DNA of 21,250 nucleotides. Origin: a virus. A model generated the notes under the pieces. It was not told the DNA's origin. It saw nothing but the letters and a program-made list of their open reading frames with translations, and made no database searches. Location of the stretch: IMG/VR virus record IMGVR_UViG_3300044966_000107, positions 1 to 21,250 of that record. The stretch is one strand, 5' to 3'. Both the position numbers and the translations under genes were made by a program. This document shows, in pieces, positions 2,113-19,051 of the stretch. Numbering within the stretch: the stretch's first letter is position 1; every line of letters starts with the position of its first letter.

Positions 2113-4469
2113 TATTGATATAAATAATTATCTGTATATGTGTCAAAAGTATAAGCCGTTCCTGGTGTGTTAATCTTCATATCTCCTCCTCCAATCGTAA
2201 CCGATGAATGACCAGTAATTACCACAGTGAAAGTGTTATTTGTTGCTATTGTCTGCGTTCCTACGGATAAGTCAAAAGTAAATGGCTGATTAGCCACGTA
2301 AACAGGATAAGTTATAGTCCGTATTGCAGTACCTGATTTCCGCAGTTCAAAGGTAACATTTTTGGGATAAGTACTGCACGAAACATTTCCAAAAATACCA
2401 ACTGTGACGGGTGTCGTGAGTGTTGTAGCTGCATCATACCTTGCCGTATTGCTTGACTGAATGCTAAAACCTCCAGAAGTAACCAATGTGAGCGGAGCGG
2501 TAAGCGGTGATGTAGTATAAGTCCCAAGTGTAAAATCAGCCTCAAATGTCTGCGTAGTAGGTAAGTCTTTGGTCTGATCCCATACCTCAACAAGCGTTCC
2601 TGACCATGTATTATTTACTAAATCAATCTCACTAATATTCGCAGGGTAGTACACCTTATTCACATCATCATCCATAAACCGATATGTATTTTTAAATGAC
2701 ATCATTTCAAAACCGCTGCCAGTATCCCATGAAATGCCATAGAGATTGACATCAATCTTGTTACGATTGAATCGGTTATGCTCCCATTGAGCAGTAGCAT
2801 TTTGCCTTCGGAATCCATAGGACTCGCCCAAGAACCGATAACGATACCAATCTGCATCGGTTAGAGTTGTTTGGTCTGATTCAAATATTGCTCCTTTGAA
2901 TGATGGACTAAAATGGTCATCAAGAAATATCTCTTGTTTATAAGAGTTATTAATTGTGAGTGACTTGGTATATAAACTATTTTCACCCTTAATCCTTCTC
3001 AAGTCTGTTTCTGATTCAAAAGCAGATACCACTTTAAAATCAAAGTTCTTTAAATATGCATTATTCGCACTTACTCCAGAAGTAGTCGCAGACAAATAAA
3101 CAGTCAAAGTACCATCCGCAGGAATTGGTAATGACTCTACCTGAGCCGTATTCCACTCAGTTGAAGTCACCCCACTTGTTGATGTAAGGTCAACAAGAAT
3201 TGGAGTACTCCCTCCCAATGATGCAGATGATGCCCATGTGCCATTCTCGTTGAGTGAATAATATGTTAAACCTGATTGAATTACTACATAACCAACTGCG
3301 TTACCAACTTGATGGGTATTTTGAAATCTAAAGTCAACAGTGAAATTAATGCTGCCACCTTGTTTTACGTTTATACTTTGTGACCTTATCCAATGGGTTG
3401 TATCTCCAACGCCTAAACTTTGAATCGGAAAATAAATATACCTATCTATTAATTGCCCACTAAGTGCAACTGCGTAGTCCTCTCTTGCCCTTAAAACTCC
3501 CGATGATGGTGGCGTTGTATTTGATATTGAACCAAAGCCGTAAGTCCATGAATCAACGCTAAACTCTTTAAATGTCGTTCCAGATGAAGTTAATGTGCCT
3601 CTTTCGAATGTTTCGTTTATTAATACCTCATCAAATACATTATAGTAGAAATCAACCTCATCGAACTTTGTTGCCCTATTTAGGCTTCTGAGCATTTCAG
3701 GCATAATAGGCTGCATCTCCCTTCCTACACCTATTTCGATATCATATCTTGTTAGAATCTCAAATTGATTTACAGATGTGACATTTGCAACCCTCAGATT
3801 ATTATTATATGATGTATAAAGTTCTTCAGGTCTAAATAACCACATTTGTCCATCGAAAAATATAGATTGACCGAATGCAGCACATATTTTTTCAATTACA
3901 GTATAGCAATCATCGTATTCAGTCCCTTCTTGTTGGAACGTTTTAGATTCAATATAGCATTGATTAAGCGGATGCCTCCCCGCAGTATCAACCATACTAT
4001 CGTGAAACAGATTATTAAGAACATAATAATCAGCCGTAACACCAGTCGTAAGAGTTGATAAAGCATTTTCTATAAATTGGAGTGGTGTATATTTACCTAC
4101 TGGCTCTGCTCCTGCTACGGCAAAAGGAATGTTTTTTAGTAACCCAAACCCTTCCGCTGCTCTTACTATCAGATAATGATTACCATCATCCCATACCTCC
4201 TCTATATCATCCTGCAAAATATAGCCATACCAAGTGCTATTTGAATAATAACCATTATAATGAACAATAACTTGTATATCTGTGTCATTATTTGCAATGA
4301 AAGTATCGATTGTTACTCCATTGACATTTGTCATTATCTGTATCTCGCATAGAAACGCTCTGATTGGCTTGAAGATATCCTCATCAGTATTATACTCACG
4401 AAAGTCAACAGTGACATCTTTATTGTCCACTGTTTTGAATGCCATTTGATATTTTAGTGCTTTAGCCAA
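2112..4469 (-). CDS. Large tail tip / hub-like protein
   Basis: At 785 residues this is the longest tail protein in the window apart from possible extension of the fibre. The first 220 residues look like a tail hub: a beta-rich start, 'STWYGYILQDDIEEVW', 'YLIVRAAEGFGLLKNIPF' (about 99-116), then 'DDCYTVIEKICAAFGQSIFF' (about 186-205) and 'GQMWLFRPEELY'. Proteins following the tape measure gene in Bacteroidota siphophages share this layout. The middle (about 280-490) resembles a jelly-roll or carbohydrate-binding insertion, and the C-terminus is again beta-rich. No lysozyme or peptidase motif is evident. The ATG overlaps the tape measure stop by 8 bases (ATGGCTAA). The likely role is closing the distal tube and bearing the fibre apparatus. 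The exact family (Dit, Tal or other) cannot be decided by eye. Confidence 0.65.
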   Translation of the reverse strand: MAKALKYQMAFKTVDNKDVTVDFREYNTDEDIFKPIRAFLCEIQIMTNVNGVTIDTFIANNDTDIQVIVHYNGYYSNSTWYGYILQDDIEEVWDDGNHYLIVRAAEGFGLLKNIPFAVAGAEPVGKYTPLQFIENALSTLTTGVTADYYVLNNLFHDSMVDTAGRHPLNQCYIESKTFQQEGTEYDDCYTVIEKICAAFGQSIFFDGQMWLFRPEELYTSYNNNLRVANVTSVNQFEILTRYDIEIGVGREMQPIMPEMLRSLNRATKFDEVDFYYNVFDEVLINETFERGTLTSSGTTFKEFSVDSWTYGFGSISNTTPPSSGVLRAREDYAVALSGQLIDRYIYFPIQSLGVGDTTHWIRSQSINVKQGGSINFTVDFRFQNTHQVGNAVGYVVIQSGLTYYSLNENGTWASSASLGGSTPILVDLTSTSGVTSTEWNTAQVESLPIPADGTLTVYLSATTSGVSANNAYLKNFDFKVVSAFESETDLRRIKGENSLYTKSLTINNSYKQEIFLDDHFSPSFKGAIFESDQTTLTDADWYRYRFLGESYGFRRQNATAQWEHNRFNRNKIDVNLYGISWDTGSGFEMMSFKNTYRFMDDDVNKVYYPANISEIDLVNNTWSGTLVEVWDQTKDLPTTQTFEADFTLGTYTTSPLTAPLTLVTSGGFSIQSSNTARYDAATTLTTPVTVGIFGNVSCSTYPKNVTFELRKSGTAIRTITYPVYVANQPFTFDLSVGTQTIATNNTFTVVITGHSSVTIGGGDMKINTPGTAYTFDTYTDNYLYQ

Positions 4470-12707: not shown

Positions 12708-13582
12708 TATGATATTATTTGAGGTTCATTTAATCTTGGTTTCCTTAATAAACGACCATTGGCATCACGCTTTGGAATGAACCCAACGGTGCAACGGCAA
12801 TTGATTGTAAACCCTGGAGGTGCAAAAATACCATTACTCTCATCACTCAATTGTCCAGGCTGCATAATTACCACAGGCTCACCCTTCTTACCTGTTGAAG
12901 TGAATGGCTCTTCAAACGGTACAATTTTACCATCCATCTGCACGTGGTCGAATTCATCTTCTGGTATTCTGCGTGTCCGCTTATCCCTTGCAGAAATCCA
13001 TTCTTTATCTACATAGAACCCATGTGCCTCCGCTCCTTTCATTGCACCGATATTGCTTGAGCGCATTACTTCCGTTCTCACAATCCTTCTTGCCCTCATG
13101 GCTGAATATGCGAGGTTCTCATCAGAAAGGATTAGTTTCACAATTTCATCCACACCTAATCCTTCTTCGATTCCTTTAGTTACGATGTCGTTTAATTTCT
13201 TCTTAGTTGTTGATGTTATATCAGCCACCAAGACAAATCCCTGCTTTAGCAGGAACTCCAACACCGCATCAGTCCACTCACGATTAAATCCAAAGGTTTC
13301 AGCCTTTTGTGATTCAATCCTCAAAGCACGATAAACACTATTGCCAAATAGCAAAACGGATTCTTTGTACATCGCCTCAAATATCTTCAGCATCTCCTTA
13401 TCCCACAAATCAAGACCAAGCCGTGAACGTGCAGCATCAATGCCGATGACTTCAATGTCACGGGCAAATCTCTTGAAAGTATTCCAAACAGATTGTTGAA
13501 TCTGCTCAAAGTACTTTTTATCAAGACCTGCTCTGAGTCTCTCCGTTTTCATCCAGTATTCCTTCCTCTGCCTTGCGTTCAT
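12707..13582 (-). CDS. MuF-like / SPP1 gp7-like head morphogenesis protein
   Basis: A 291-residue protein, helical in its first 200 residues. It includes 'ITSTTKKKLNDIVTKGIEEG' and 'AMRARRIVRTEVMRSSNIGA' (the conserved 'R..RT.....N.A' helix). A C-terminal beta segment has 'KEWISARDKRTRRIPEDEFD', and the hallmark 'PGFTINCRCTVGFIPK' ends the family core. Such minor head proteins sit with the portal inside the capsid and aid assembly or DNA ejection. The gene lies between portal and protease, as usual. No toxin domain is fused at the C-terminus. The first ATG (13582) is used; it lies inside the small ORF at 13521-13685. Its stop overlaps the protease ATG. Confidence 0.87.
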   Translation of the reverse strand: MNARQRKEYWMKTERLRAGLDKKYFEQIQQSVWNTFKRFARDIEVIGIDAARSRLGLDLWDKEMLKIFEAMYKESVLLFGNSVYRALRIESQKAETFGFNREWTDAVLEFLLKQGFVLVADITSTTKKKLNDIVTKGIEEGLGVDEIVKLILSDENLAYSAMRARRIVRTEVMRSSNIGAMKGAEAHGFYVDKEWISARDKRTRRIPEDEFDHVQMDGKIVPFEEPFTSTGKKGEPVVIMQPGQLSDESNGIFAPPGFTINCRCTVGFIPKRDANGRLLRKPRLNEPQIIS

Positions 13583-13685
13583 TTTCTAACCTTGTTTTAT
13601 ATGCTGCCCTTAGCGCATCCATCATCCTCTTTTCTATCAGGCAATTTCGTTCTGCCTGTGTTTTAGGGTATTTCTCATATACCAT
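13521..13685 (-). CDS. Possible 54-residue protein bridging portal and MuF genes
   Basis: A small ORF that fills the 92-base gap between portal and MuF genes. It starts at an ATG inside the portal end (ATGGTATATGA, 11-base overlap) and runs 62 bases into the next gene in another frame. The product begins MVYEKYPKTQAERNC, is highly charged (many Lys, Arg, Glu), probably helical ('LIEKRMMDALRAAYKTRLEN') and ends EGILDENGETQSRS. No family is recognised. In its favour are the coupled start, the matching strand and the otherwise unexplained gap. Against it are its short length and the overlap with the MuF start. Translation through this ORF could also bring ribosomes to the MuF start. Confidence 0.45.
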   Translation of the reverse strand: MVYEKYPKTQAERNCLIEKRMMDALRAAYKTRLENERKAEEGILDENGETQSRS

Positions 13686-15055: not shown

Positions 15056-16204
15056 TTACATTATACCCCAAGTCAACTGAGGTGCGTTTAATTTCGTATA
15101 TACACTATATCTAAGACCATCAATGGCATGATCCATGAATTTCACAGGCTCATCTAATCTCTCCCCGTTCTTATCCGTTTTCCACTTATAGTTCTTGAGT
15201 TCCTTGATGAGATTGGCTGAAGTATCCAACACAAAGAAAGGCAAAGATTTTATCTTTTGAATACCTACGAACACATCTTTATTCGATGGCTTAGCATTAA
15301 ACCCATTCCTTACAAGTTCTTCGATGGTTTTAGGCTCGGCAGAATCGCAAAATATCTCATCATAGGCTGAAATGCCGAGATTCTTAATCCGCTCTACAAG
15401 GTCATTCGTAGTGAGTTTAGTTTCATACAACATCTCCTCTGCGTAAATACCACCATCATGAAATACCACTTTAACCATTGCCGATGGGTTGTTAAATCCA
15501 AAGTCAAGTCCGTAAACCGTCTCACCTTCAGGCATCTTGGTTACTGGCCTCCAATGGGTGTAAACTGTGTCATTCTGATTTCCTTTCTGACCTAATCCGT
15601 AAACAAGCCAGTAATTCTCATCGGCATCCTTTAGGCGTTCGATTTCAGCCACAAGTTCTTTCGGCAGGAATGGGTTGTCTTTGTAGGTAGTGATGAAGAA
15701 ATCAGCATCATCACGTGGAATGACTTTATCGAATACCCAATGATACTCATCTGAAGGGTTATAGTCGAGAACGATTTTACCCTCAGTCCTCATGGTTAAC
15801 TGCACCCATGCCTCATAAGACATCTCGGTGCATTCGTTCATAAAGAGATAGGTTCTCTTCCTACCCCGTATTTTATGCGGTTGGTCAACGGAAACGAACT
15901 CAACAAGATTACCATTGAGGTTGTAGGTCTGCTCAGTCTTATTGTGATTCGACTCATCGTAAATCCCCATCTTCAGCAGAATCTCAATGAAATCACGCAG
16001 CACCGAACCCTTGATGCTCGGTAATGACTGCCTGACAATGGAAAGGGTTTTACCCCGTTCATGTAGGAGTTTAATCACAAACCACAGAATTATGTTGTAC
16101 GTTTTACCAGAACGTGATCCGCCCTGCATCACAGTGATACGGGAAGACGAATCCTTGAGGATTTCGAATACTCTACTTGTTTGTATTTTCAGCGGTTGTC
16201 CCAT
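15056..16204 (-). CDS. terL: Terminase large subunit
   Basis: A 382-residue packaging motor. The ATPase half has Walker A 'GGSRSGKT' (28-35) and Walker B with catalytic Glu 'TYLFMNE' (118-124). It also has 'LDYNPSDEYHWVF' (146-158), typical of the PBSX-type large terminases. The nuclease half has the RNase H-like acidic set: 'YGLDFGFNNPSAM' (D234), 'IFCDSAEPKTIEEL' (D287) and 'MDHAIDGLRYSVY' (D358, D362). All key residues are present, and the length is at the short end for the family. The ATG lies 32 bases inside the small subunit gene. It cuts concatemers and drives DNA through the portal. Confidence 0.95.
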   Translation of the reverse strand: MGQPLKIQTSRVFEILKDSSSRITVMQGGSRSGKTYNIILWFVIKLLHERGKTLSIVRQSLPSIKGSVLRDFIEILLKMGIYDESNHNKTEQTYNLNGNLVEFVSVDQPHKIRGRKRTYLFMNECTEMSYEAWVQLTMRTEGKIVLDYNPSDEYHWVFDKVIPRDDADFFITTYKDNPFLPKELVAEIERLKDADENYWLVYGLGQKGNQNDTVYTHWRPVTKMPEGETVYGLDFGFNNPSAMVKVVFHDGGIYAEEMLYETKLTTNDLVERIKNLGISAYDEIFCDSAEPKTIEELVRNGFNAKPSNKDVFVGIQKIKSLPFFVLDTSANLIKELKNYKWKTDKNGERLDEPVKFMDHAIDGLRYSVYTKLNAPQLTWGIM

Positions 16205-16454
16205 TGATAATTTCTACAACTAATCCTGATAAATTGCCTTCAATTGTCTGCTCTACTTTCTTGACTGGTTCGCCAAGGTAGTATTTTACAAAGAGTTTTA
16301 TGGCTTCCATATCCTTCTCCTTTATCTTCTCACCCCATGCCTTAAACGCATCTGGCTCGAACACAGATAATTTCTCCATTTGCTCTTCTTCATCCATCCT
16401 CTTTTTTCGACCCGCTCCAGGTCTCTTACCACCCCATCCTTTTACGTTACTCAT
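16173..16454 (-). CDS. terS: Terminase small subunit-like protein
   Basis: A 93-residue protein with the N-terminal 'GWGGKRPGAGRKKRMDEEEQ', the basic glycine-arginine start seen in many phage small terminases and related DNA-binding proteins. Helices follow ('DAFKAWGEKIKEKDMEAIKL', 'FVKYYLGEPVKK'), with a short beta tail. It is directly upstream of and overlaps the large subunit gene, the standard position. It would recognise the packaging site and stimulate TerL. The ATG overlaps the preceding stop by 8 bases (ATGAGTAA). The lack of a long helix-turn-helix region is normal for short members, though the assignment depends partly on context. Confidence 0.75.
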   Translation of the reverse strand: MSNVKGWGGKRPGAGRKKRMDEEEQMEKLSVFEPDAFKAWGEKIKEKDMEAIKLFVKYYLGEPVKKVEQTIEGNLSGLVVEIINGTTAENTNK

Positions 16455-16665
16455 GATTTTCTCCTTGTTTATTCAAGACTATTGCGTGCATATCGTGTGT
16501 AAAGCCTTTTGAGTCCACTTCTTGCCTCTCAAATATCCTCAGCTTTATCCAACCATCATCTGACTGCAAAGTGTCTAAATACGCCTTAAAATCCTCAACA
16601 AAGACATTCAGCATTATGCTATTGTCTTTTGTATTATGCCGTATGTAAAAACCTTTCTTTGCCAT
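16447..16665 (-). CDS. Small conserved-looking protein before the terminase genes
   Basis: A 72-residue mixed alpha/beta protein without membrane segment or known motif. It contains 'KGFYIRHNTKDNSIMLNVFV', 'DFKAYLDTLQSDDGWIKLRI' and 'THDMHAIVLNKQ'. I do not recognise the family. It is the first gene after the repeat-rich region and overlaps the small terminase gene by 8 bases. It is therefore probably the first product of the late transcript, or the last early one if transcription reads through. The single strong ATG is at 16665. Confidence 0.7.
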   Translation of the reverse strand: MAKKGFYIRHNTKDNSIMLNVFVEDFKAYLDTLQSDDGWIKLRIFERQEVDSKGFTHDMHAIVLNKQGENHE

Positions 16666-16670
16666 TTAAA

Positions 16671-16705
16671 CAAAATTAATCAGATTTAGATATTTATGGC
16701 GAAAT
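16671..16705 (-). promoter_or_regulatory. Weak candidate Bacteroidota-type promoter
   Basis: On the minus strand TAATTTTG (16678-16671) matches the Bacteroidota -7 box TAnnTTTG. TTTC at 16704-16701 is one base off the -33 TTTG and about 22 bases upstream, slightly long. Transcription would begin at or just before the ATG at 16665. It is AT-rich sequence, so a chance match is quite possible. Confidence 0.25.
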
Positions 16706-16713
16706 ATTTTTTG

Positions 16714-16850
16714 TAGGGTAACTTGGGTAACTTGGGCAACTTCAAAACGCCTTCCTATAAGGTGCTATAAAAATCACGCGTTATATATACTCTCTATAAT
16801 ATAATATTCTATAACCTTTTATAGGAATTTATCTTACCCAAGTTACCCTA
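16714..16850. repeat. Perfect 17-bp inverted repeat around an AT-rich core
   Basis: The left arm 16714-16730 reads TAGGGTAACTTGGGTAA and the right arm 16834-16850 is its exact reverse complement, 103 bases apart. The arms each carry about two repeat units, so the dyad is part of the wider GGGTAACTT array. Confidence 0.85.
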
Positions 16851-16934
16851 ATACGCTAAAAGCCTTATCTACATTGAGTTTGAGTGGGGTAACTTCGTCA
16901 ATTTACAAGTTACCCGAAGTTGCCCAACCTACCC
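16714..16934. other. Candidate replication origin or early/late control region: nested dyad with GGGTAACTT repeats
   Basis: The non-coding gap after the primase-helicase gene. Three tandem 9-mers lie at 16716-16742 (GGGTAACTT twice, then GGGCAACTT). Inverted copies lie at 16840-16848, 16907-16915 and 16917-16925 (AAGTTGCCC), and another direct copy at 16887-16895. Weaker inverted copies adjoin at 16831-16839 and 16926-16934. The 17-base sequence at 16714-16730 has a perfect inverted copy at 16834-16850. Inside it a 9-base pair of arms (16752-16760 and 16819-16827) flanks a very AT-rich core rich in TATA steps. Repeats in opposite orientation around a melting-prone core, next to the replication protein gene, is the layout of iteron origins such as those of SaPI elements. 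Operator sites for a regulator are the main alternative. Confidence 0.55.
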
Positions 16935-19051
16935 TATTTTGGCATAATTTGGTATTTTTGTACGCCATTCTTCTTTTTTTGCTCATACCCAAGTTCTTTT
17001 AATACAATACCAAGTTTCTTTGATCCGACTCTTAATTTCATTTTATCCATTATAATTGAGACTATTTCAGTATTTGTTAAATAGCTATATCCATCATGTA
17101 TGGTTGGATTGTGAAACAATTTTTCAAGGCATTCCTCTTCAACTGATGGTTCAGAATTCCTTGCATGGGTATATTCTTTCATAAGATCAATCATTGCGTC
17201 ATTTAATTGTGCTTCATAGCCTTTTTTGTGCATATCGTACAATTGACCAAAAAGCTGCTCTTTATCTATACTATTATATAGTTCATAATCAAATTTCCCA
17301 ATAACCTCTAATACAAGTATTCTTCGGTTTCCTGTAATATCATTAAGTATTTTAGTTTCATTAGTAGTGGCACAAAGGGATGCAATCCGTTTCATTTTAA
17401 CGTTTTGTCTACCATACGGCTCTCTTATATCAAAGTGAGGTGCTGAAAGTAGCCGTTTAATTAGTTTAGCATCCTCTTTAGCCTTACCGCTATATTCATC
17501 ATCAAGAATGAGTAATTTTTCGCACATAAGTATCTGGTCATCCTTACCATTATCCAATTGTGACAAACCAAAATACCTTGATAATTGCTTTGGTAGTAAT
17601 TGCTTAAAAAATACTGATTTTCCAGTATTCTGCTTTCCTGCGAAAATCAATTGTAAGATATTTGGGTTGTCTATATATATTGATTCAATGATGCCCAAAA
17701 GCCATGATTGAACTGCAATAAGCCTATAATCAAAGTCACCAGTATCTGAATTAATTGATTGAACCAATGGGGTTATCCTATCTTTTTCATCCCATTCAAT
17801 TGAATCGAAGTATGTTTTAATTGGATTATATATAGGCGTGAAATGACTGAATATTATACTCAAAAACATATCATTAGATAGCTTTTCAAATTTCTCTTTG
17901 GCTTCTAAGAATATAGTATTGAAGTCTTCAGTATTCATCTCATTACCATTCCATTCATACTTTCTTGTAACCTCATTTTTCTTTATTTGATATCTGCGTA
18001 AAAACAATTTAACGGCTTCAATATCAAGTTTATTTGACTTCTTTTCTTCCTTTTTTGCTTGTTCATAACCTTTAGTAACGATTGCGTCATCAGGTATAAC
18101 TCCCTCATCCTCAATCATTTTCTTCGCTTGTTCAACTGTTAATCCAGTAAGTTTTGCAACTTCAGCCACTTTCATCATTATCTTTTCATCTTCAGTATAA
18201 ATATCAATATCATGATGTAAAGCCTCATTATAAAACGCTTTTATAGTTGCTACTTTTTCTCTGCCTTCTGAGTTTCTACAACACAATTCATATTGTTCAA
18301 TACATTCCTGCTCTGTGTATTGATCAGAATATTTACTTATTGCTTTGAAAAATTCAACGCCATGCTTACCATATTGGTGTGCAATAGCAAAACCAAGTCT
18401 TACCCAAGTAACATAATTACTAGTAATGTCTTTTTTGGCTTTTTCTATGTTTTTAAGTACAAATCCAAAACGTGTATCAGAATGAGGTATACCTTCATCA
18501 TTCTTTTTCTCAATCTCTTGTACTTTGCTTTTGAATACTTTTGATTTCTCATTTATGTAAAGGTCAGGATCAAAAGAGACGTATCTAATACGTGAAACAT
18601 TTTTACAAGCAGTATCTATTTTAACTCTAAACTTATCCCAATAGTACTGGGCAAGTCCATTAAATGATTCAAGGTGTTTTGAGCCTTCAATTTTTACTAT
18701 GGCACAAACTCCTGTATGAGAAACTGATTTAAATACTGAAAATGTGTAAGTATCTGACTTTAATTGATTTACTAACCCATTTATATTATCTACATGGTCA
18801 AAGTCTATTCCAATTAAATTGGAATGTTCAATTAGTGTTTTATCTGCCCTCCCTTTGTCAAACCTACCAGAAATTGTGTAATTGGGTAGGTGTTTTTTTA
18901 AATCCCTGCGTTTCTTTTCATCAGGTTCATTCATTATTGGTAGGCATTCATCCTGCCACCTTCCTGTTTTTATACCCGATAAAATTGCCGAAATATCTTC
19001 TGTAACAATACTTTGGATATCAAATCCATTGCGATATGTTGAAATAAGCAT
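16934..19051 (-). CDS. Primase-helicase: BT4734-like primase domain, PriCT-like region and VirE-type ATPase
   Basis: A 705-residue replication protein. Residues 1-175 form a BT4734-like / archaeo-eukaryotic primase-related domain with 'LIGIDFDHVDN' (acidic pair D83, D85), 'SVSHTGVCAIVKIEG' (His 112) and 'RIRYVSFDPDLYIN'. Residues about 195-280 look like a PriCT-2-type helical domain ('YVTWVRLGFAIAHQYG', 'YTEQECIEQYELCCRN'). Residues about 410-600 are a VirE/D5-like ATPase: Walker A 'AGKQNTGKS' (471-479), Walker B 'LLILDDE' (513-519), 'LCATTNETKIL' (sensor) and 'GNRRILVLEV' with a probable arginine finger. The C-terminus may be a winged-helix DNA-binding part. It should prime and unwind phage DNA at the origin. 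The putative origin repeats start at its stop codon. Confidence 0.9.
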   Translation of the reverse strand: MLISTYRNGFDIQSIVTEDISAILSGIKTGRWQDECLPIMNEPDEKKRRDLKKHLPNYTISGRFDKGRADKTLIEHSNLIGIDFDHVDNINGLVNQLKSDTYTFSVFKSVSHTGVCAIVKIEGSKHLESFNGLAQYYWDKFRVKIDTACKNVSRIRYVSFDPDLYINEKSKVFKSKVQEIEKKNDEGIPHSDTRFGFVLKNIEKAKKDITSNYVTWVRLGFAIAHQYGKHGVEFFKAISKYSDQYTEQECIEQYELCCRNSEGREKVATIKAFYNEALHHDIDIYTEDEKIMMKVAEVAKLTGLTVEQAKKMIEDEGVIPDDAIVTKGYEQAKKEEKKSNKLDIEAVKLFLRRYQIKKNEVTRKYEWNGNEMNTEDFNTIFLEAKEKFEKLSNDMFLSIIFSHFTPIYNPIKTYFDSIEWDEKDRITPLVQSINSDTGDFDYRLIAVQSWLLGIIESIYIDNPNILQLIFAGKQNTGKSVFFKQLLPKQLSRYFGLSQLDNGKDDQILMCEKLLILDDEYSGKAKEDAKLIKRLLSAPHFDIREPYGRQNVKMKRIASLCATTNETKILNDITGNRRILVLEVIGKFDYELYNSIDKEQLFGQLYDMHKKGYEAQLNDAMIDLMKEYTHARNSEPSVEEECLEKLFHNPTIHDGYSYLTNTEIVSIIMDKMKLRVGSKKLGIVLKELGYEQKKKNGVQKYQIMPK

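Follow-up and report, generated by a model that had tools for sequence, protein, structure and literature searches.

We identified an array of nine short repeats that very probably serves as the replication origin of a tailed phage, with the neighboring primase-helicase as its initiator and the predicted C-terminal winged helix of that protein as the reader of the repeats, an arrangement proposed from sequence comparison, structural models and analogy with SaPI replicons. The window, by which we mean the whole stretch of DNA analyzed, is the 21,250-bp virus record IMGVR_UViG_3300044966_000107, whose replication and packaging genes lie on the minus strand and whose closest named relatives, by primase and terminase comparison, infect Flavobacteriia and Bacteroidia. 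An earlier note on this DNA had suggested a SaPI-type iteron origin, and the comparisons reported here support it indirectly: the array stays with the primase gene rather than with any particular gene downstream, its layout persists as the iterons change in concert, the C-terminal winged helix of the primase diverges along with the iteron, and the predicted fold of the protein resembles that of SaPI initiators. In the literature, we did not find the replication start of phages with BT4734/VirE primases described.

An iteron array at the primase-helicase stop codon

Nine iterons with the consensus GGGTAACTT, five of them exact, lie within 16716-16934 (Table 1). The array starts directly at the stop codon of the primase-helicase gene, as the earlier note had it, and surrounds an AT-rich core (73% AT vs 67% for the whole intergene); replication genes flank it on one side and the terminase on the other, and a single 72-codon ORF (16447-16665) also lies in between. 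The note had also described three tandem 9-mers and at least four further copies. Two of the tandem copies are exact and the third is a near copy with one mismatch, while six further copies were found. The 17-bp inverted repeat (16714-16730 with 16834-16850) that it had called perfect is exact, and consists of blocks B and C standing face to face. An inner 9-bp dyad (16752-16760 with 16819-16827) is likewise exact in the window but is broken in the close relatives L002 and L004; it is therefore probably incidental, and we rejected it as a functional element. The second copy of block B retains the GGGTAAGAT form used by relatives, as it also does in L014 and L016, and may be a relic or a specialised site.

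Table 1 Features of the proposed origin, its neighborhood and related nuclease genes.
Feature	Position	Strand	Details
Iteron, block A copy 1	16926-16934	-	GGGTAGGTT, 2 mismatches; overlaps primase stop codon; same place in relatives
Iteron, block A copy 2	16917-16925	-	GGGCAACTT, 1 mismatch
Iteron, block A copy 3	16907-16915	-	GGGTAACTT, exact
Single inverted iteron	16887-16895	+	GGGTAACTT, exact; position conserved in relatives
Iteron, block B copy 1	16840-16848	-	GGGTAACTT, exact
Iteron, block B copy 2	16831-16839	-	GGGTAAGAT, 2 mismatches; word used by relatives such as L003
AT-rich core, proposed unwinding element	16743-16830		88 bp, 73% AT; block B-C gap conserved in relatives
Block C, three tandem iterons, inverted vs blocks A and B	16716-16742	+	Exact at 16716-16724 and 16725-16733; GGGCAACTT at 16734-16742
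Primase-helicase, proposed origin initiator	16934-19051	-	705 aa; Pfam matches, AlphaFold model, PDB match
Predicted C-terminal winged helix, proposed iteron reader	16937-17107	-	About residues 649-705; AlphaFold models and co-divergence
Possible Bacteroidota -7 promoter element	16671-16678	-	TAATTTTG; just before ATG of 72-aa ORF; kept in L003, L006
T5orf172 nuclease genes in or beside iteron arrays	L025:16860-17423; L150:5170-5748; L153:5236-5811; L155:5237-5812		C-terminal domain homologous to primase winged helix

The whole window has 12 sites with at most one mismatch to the iteron, a number not attained in any of 100 dinucleotide shuffles (4.17 ± 2.04); seven of these sites fall inside 210 bp. 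The 300 nt after the primase gene have a repeat score of 60, against a maximum of 17 in 200 shuffles; none of 407 other stretches of the window reached this score, so that no other repeat cluster there is as strong. Folded as a single strand, the array is also more stable than its shuffles (z = −3.5), as expected from inverted repeats, and we did not count this as evidence. GC skew, a check proposed in the earlier note, counts against the origin reading in being negative throughout the window with no switch at the array, though it follows the coding strand; a switch was also missing at the array in mymlan6-1, and we set skew aside as origin evidence. An Rfam search returned no match, sigma-70 and terminator scans stayed at chance level, and a scan of a genome collection yielded no prophage relatives.

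The primase-helicase carries BT4734-N, PriCT-2 and VapE/DUF5906 helicase domains by Pfam and, in its AlphaFold model, a C-terminal winged helix whose recognition helix opens with residues 676/677. Both methods gave PriRep1 with dsDNA (7pds) as the best PDB match (Z 23.4), followed by the NrS-1 C-terminal region (Z 14.9) and then the SaPI5 primase-helicase (Z 13.5). Taken alone, the C-terminal domain had no confident PDB match, and its weak matches include winged-helix regulators. In SaPI Reps, the C-terminal domain reads iterons just downstream of the protein's own gene, and Cch2 is alike (PMC7581432); we read the array as an origin because its anatomy is the same, with iterons downstream and a proposed C-terminal reader. 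On this model, the winged helix of the primase-helicase would bind the 9-bp iterons, and the protein would assemble on blocks B and C, facing across the AT-rich core, with block A and the single inverted copy supplying additional sites. The SF3-type helicase domains would melt the core and load as hexamers, the AEP primase domain would make the first primers, and replication would start at the array.

One layout in related phages

The earlier note had proposed a search for the same 9-mer beside homologous genes. Two iterons in tandem (GGGTAACTTGGGTAACTT) occur in 12 of the 2.9 million viral contigs scanned, ten of which have them directly after a homologous primase gene (42-99% identity). No initiator was identified in the eleventh, L012. 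In the twelfth, L013, GGGTAACTT repeats (13404-13590) directly follow the gene for a DUF927 helicase carrying a Cch HTH domain, so the same 9-mer also accompanies an initiator of unrelated type.

Many more relatives were gathered by protein-based scans. An array scoring above all 200 shuffles was present within 300 nt of the end of the primase gene in 36 of 41 non-redundant relatives, and in 33 it was the top repeat stretch of the locus. The five that did not exceed shuffles are L045, which looks like an inverted-duplicate contig; L046 and L048, which are distant; L050, which has a nuclease gene between primase and array; and L051, whose iteron TGTAATAT is too AT-rich for the score yet is still found in nine copies by position listing. 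For L086 and L093, the tested stretch starts after the nuclease gene because the match extended into the nuclease C-terminal domain. Two cultured phages, P12024S and phi46:1, have no such array directly after the primase gene; in the latter (Cellulophaga phage, L024), AAAAGTTATCTAAAAGTTTT-like repeats occupy several intergenic places (23770-23880, 27800-27970) and not one post-primase array. Separately, in the far relative L160 (a 41-kb contig, 24% identity), GTGTAAA repeats surround a TATATA-rich core behind the helicase gene (~3540-3900), and L106 has GGGTAAGAT tandem repeats and an AT-rich stretch upstream of a DUF3987 gene, next to where it starts (724-760).

The layout is shared by two clades about 30% identical to each other, and holds although the primases are only down to 30% identical and the iterons differ. 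Counted from the stop codon, three copies lie at ~3-28, one inverted copy at ~36-50 and two copies at ~77-105, followed by the AT core and two or three inverted copies at ~180-220; in the L031-L036 group the layout is shifted. Iteron words include GGGTAACTT, GGGTAAGAT, GAGTAGGAT, GGGTAGGAT and GGGACACTT, and those of the second clade include GGTAACC, AGGTAATA, AGGTAAGG, TGTAATAT and AATGACA. In their tandem copies, L031 and L047 differ by GTTACCC versus GTGTCCC and retain spacers such as AGCCCAACAACAGCGCGG; L032 and L036 differ at the sixth position of the word in those copies that both have. In both pairs, the same base change appears in nearly every iteron and the spacers are conserved.

An array of this kind could instead be mainly an operator, through which the primase-helicase or another regulator would control the downstream late/packaging promoter or its own operon. 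Consistent with this, block C lies ~40 bp upstream of TAATTTTG before the 72-aa ORF, as also in L003 and L006, and in the second clade the next gene has its start codon immediately beside the last iteron. However, the downstream gene changes between clades (72-aa ORF, HNH-like, VRR-NUC) and the array remains after the primase, nine sites around an AT-rich core far exceed the needs of a simple operator, the partner in co-divergence is the winged helix of the primase, and an unsystematic look revealed no separate conserved regulator. We consider an operator unlikely as the main function, and the array may have a dual origin/operator role. TAATTTTG matches TAnnTTTG and is a possible Bacteroidota -7 promoter element; at its position, it could yield a near-leaderless transcript of the 72-aa ORF.

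Co-divergence of the winged helix and the iterons

We compared winged helices at matched helicase identity (92.6% for pairs with the same iteron and 92.1% for pairs with different iterons, the pairs not being independent) and found them 77% identical where the iterons were the same (76 pairs) and 50% identical where they differed (67 pairs). In the second clade, one of 722 alignment columns separates the iteron classes: a C after GGTAA goes with Lys/Arg, and a T or G with Phe/Ile/Met/Val. This column falls in the wing, and well-supported branches of the tree force at least four class changes. Among simulated labelings with an equal number of changes, 32 of 1000 had a separating column anywhere in the alignment and 29 of 2000 had one within the winged helix, figures to be read with the base class having been picked after inspection of the data.

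In the clade to which the window belongs, the nine CTT-type phages all have Gly at residue 676, and the ten GAT-type phages all have Ser, Asn or Tyr there. Three contigs found by GGGTAAGAT twice and lying outside the set on which the rule was made (L101, L109 and L110) have primase neighbors with Ser at the predicted position 676. The Gly676 rule alone is not significant, since 13% of simulated labelings yield such a winged-helix column, and we do not treat Gly676 as a proven specificity residue, perfect as it is within the set. Nor is the number of disjoint columns in this clade, 17, unusual (318 of 1000 simulations reach 17). With regard to the C-terminal domain setting origin specificity, what we observe is co-divergence, at the level of sequence.

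Because the winged-helix codons adjoin the array, linkage contributes to this co-divergence. At the extreme, a different, unseen protein would bind the iterons and the co-divergence of the primase C-terminus would reflect physical linkage only; the winged-helix codons do end at the first iteron, and recombination would move both together. Against this, the closest and clearest pairs change iterons and winged helix and yet keep much spacer sequence and the downstream genes, and similar arrays directly follow unrelated initiators (DUF927 in L013; PrimPol-DUF3987 in L167, L171, L178 and L181), making an unseen binder a very improbable explanation. Least credible of all is a role in packaging, as a pac/cos site that the small subunit of the terminase would read: the array lies ~260 bp upstream of a small-terminase-like ORF (16173-16454), but in Flavobacterium phage mymlan6-1 it is placed at about 17.4 kb, behind the genes for primase and nuclease, and over 800 bp and other genes separate it from the terminase small subunit further on, and the iteron sequence changes with the primase C-terminus.

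If the array is an origin as we propose, its layout makes origins recognizable in dozens of phage contigs and in the cultured Flavobacterium phages snusmum, mumin and mymlan, whose availability means that the origin can be tested now. The natural pairs of iteron and winged helix likewise offer material for learning how origins are read by their initiators, and how both partners can change and remain functional.

Nucleases at the proposed origins of relatives and comparison with known systems

Block A is interrupted by a T5orf172 nuclease gene in the mumin and mymlan phages; the array of snusmum, from the same primase group, is uninterrupted. In hhalign, the C-terminal part of this nuclease aligns with the winged helix of the primase (probability 97, E 1.2e-10). 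Related T5orf172 nucleases follow other VapE primases (L150, L153, L155, L165, L172, L175 and L176), and the combination of T5orf172 nuclease and initiator domain, present in L025, L150, L153, L155, L165 and L175, is absent from the window. The same nuclease family also follows PrimPol-DUF3987 genes (L167, L168, L169, L171, L177, L178, L181, L182 and L185), where the nuclease HTH resembles the C-terminal HTH of the initiator and the post-initiator gap holds repeat arrays. Two unrelated initiator families show the pattern: BT4734-VapE, with its winged helix, and PrimPol-DUF3987, whose HTH is different. When nuclease domains were compared with those of the neighboring initiators, cognate matching was modest in the VapE group (243 of 20,000 permutations) and none was found in the DUF3987 group, so we do not claim one-to-one pairing.

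By sequence resemblance and analogy, these proteins are candidate origin-directed nucleases. We tentatively raise, as a possibility we hold at somewhat below even confidence, that they take part in an arms race in which origin-adjacent nucleases cut rivals with the same iterons. The copied initiator DNA-binding domain would direct cutting to rival origins, and phages would escape by altering every iteron and the initiator winged helix together. If this link holds, origins would be a target of phage conflict beyond the Vibrio PLE/ICP1 case.

That case offers the closest parallel for the nucleases. In Vibrio cholerae PLE RepA and its origin and in ICP1 Odn, the initiator DNA-binding domain varies with the origin iterons, and Odn joins a T5orf172 nuclease to a DNA-binding domain like that of the initiator (PMC8263062). 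The nucleases of the window's relatives resemble Odn (PMC8263062; PMC10448857), but the initiator there is of the RepA_N type and here an AEP-helicase, and among the relatives the nuclease gene is located within or next to what we propose as the phage's own origin; the window has no such gene. NrS-1 primase-polymerase and pRN1 ORF904 are, like the proposed initiator of the window, primase-helicase fusions that serve as single initiator, the likeness of NrS-1, whose C-terminal region was the second-best match, being one of fold. Plasmid pRN1 requires 166 bp downstream of orf904 (PMC4234260). As far as is known, the type of array differs from that of the window in both.

The nearest counterparts are SaPI PriRep1, SaPI5, SaPIbov1 and SCCmec Cch2, which have the AEP-linked SF3/D5-type helicase fold that Pfam and the fold match give for the window's protein. 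In SaPI replicons, as proposed for the window with its array around an AT-rich segment directly behind the initiator gene, a short-iteron origin lies directly downstream and the C-terminal domain is implicated in reading it (PMC7581432). Whereas a SaPI satellite has no full packaging/capsid set of its own, the window belongs to a tailed phage encoding its own terminase and portal. It differs further in its BT4734-N and VapE domains, its 3-1-2-core-3 layout and its GGGTAACTT iterons, and its relatives differ from SaPIs in extensive iteron switching between close relatives. The evidence supports placing the window within the SaPI-like kind of initiator and iteron origin, as a variant found in a phage.
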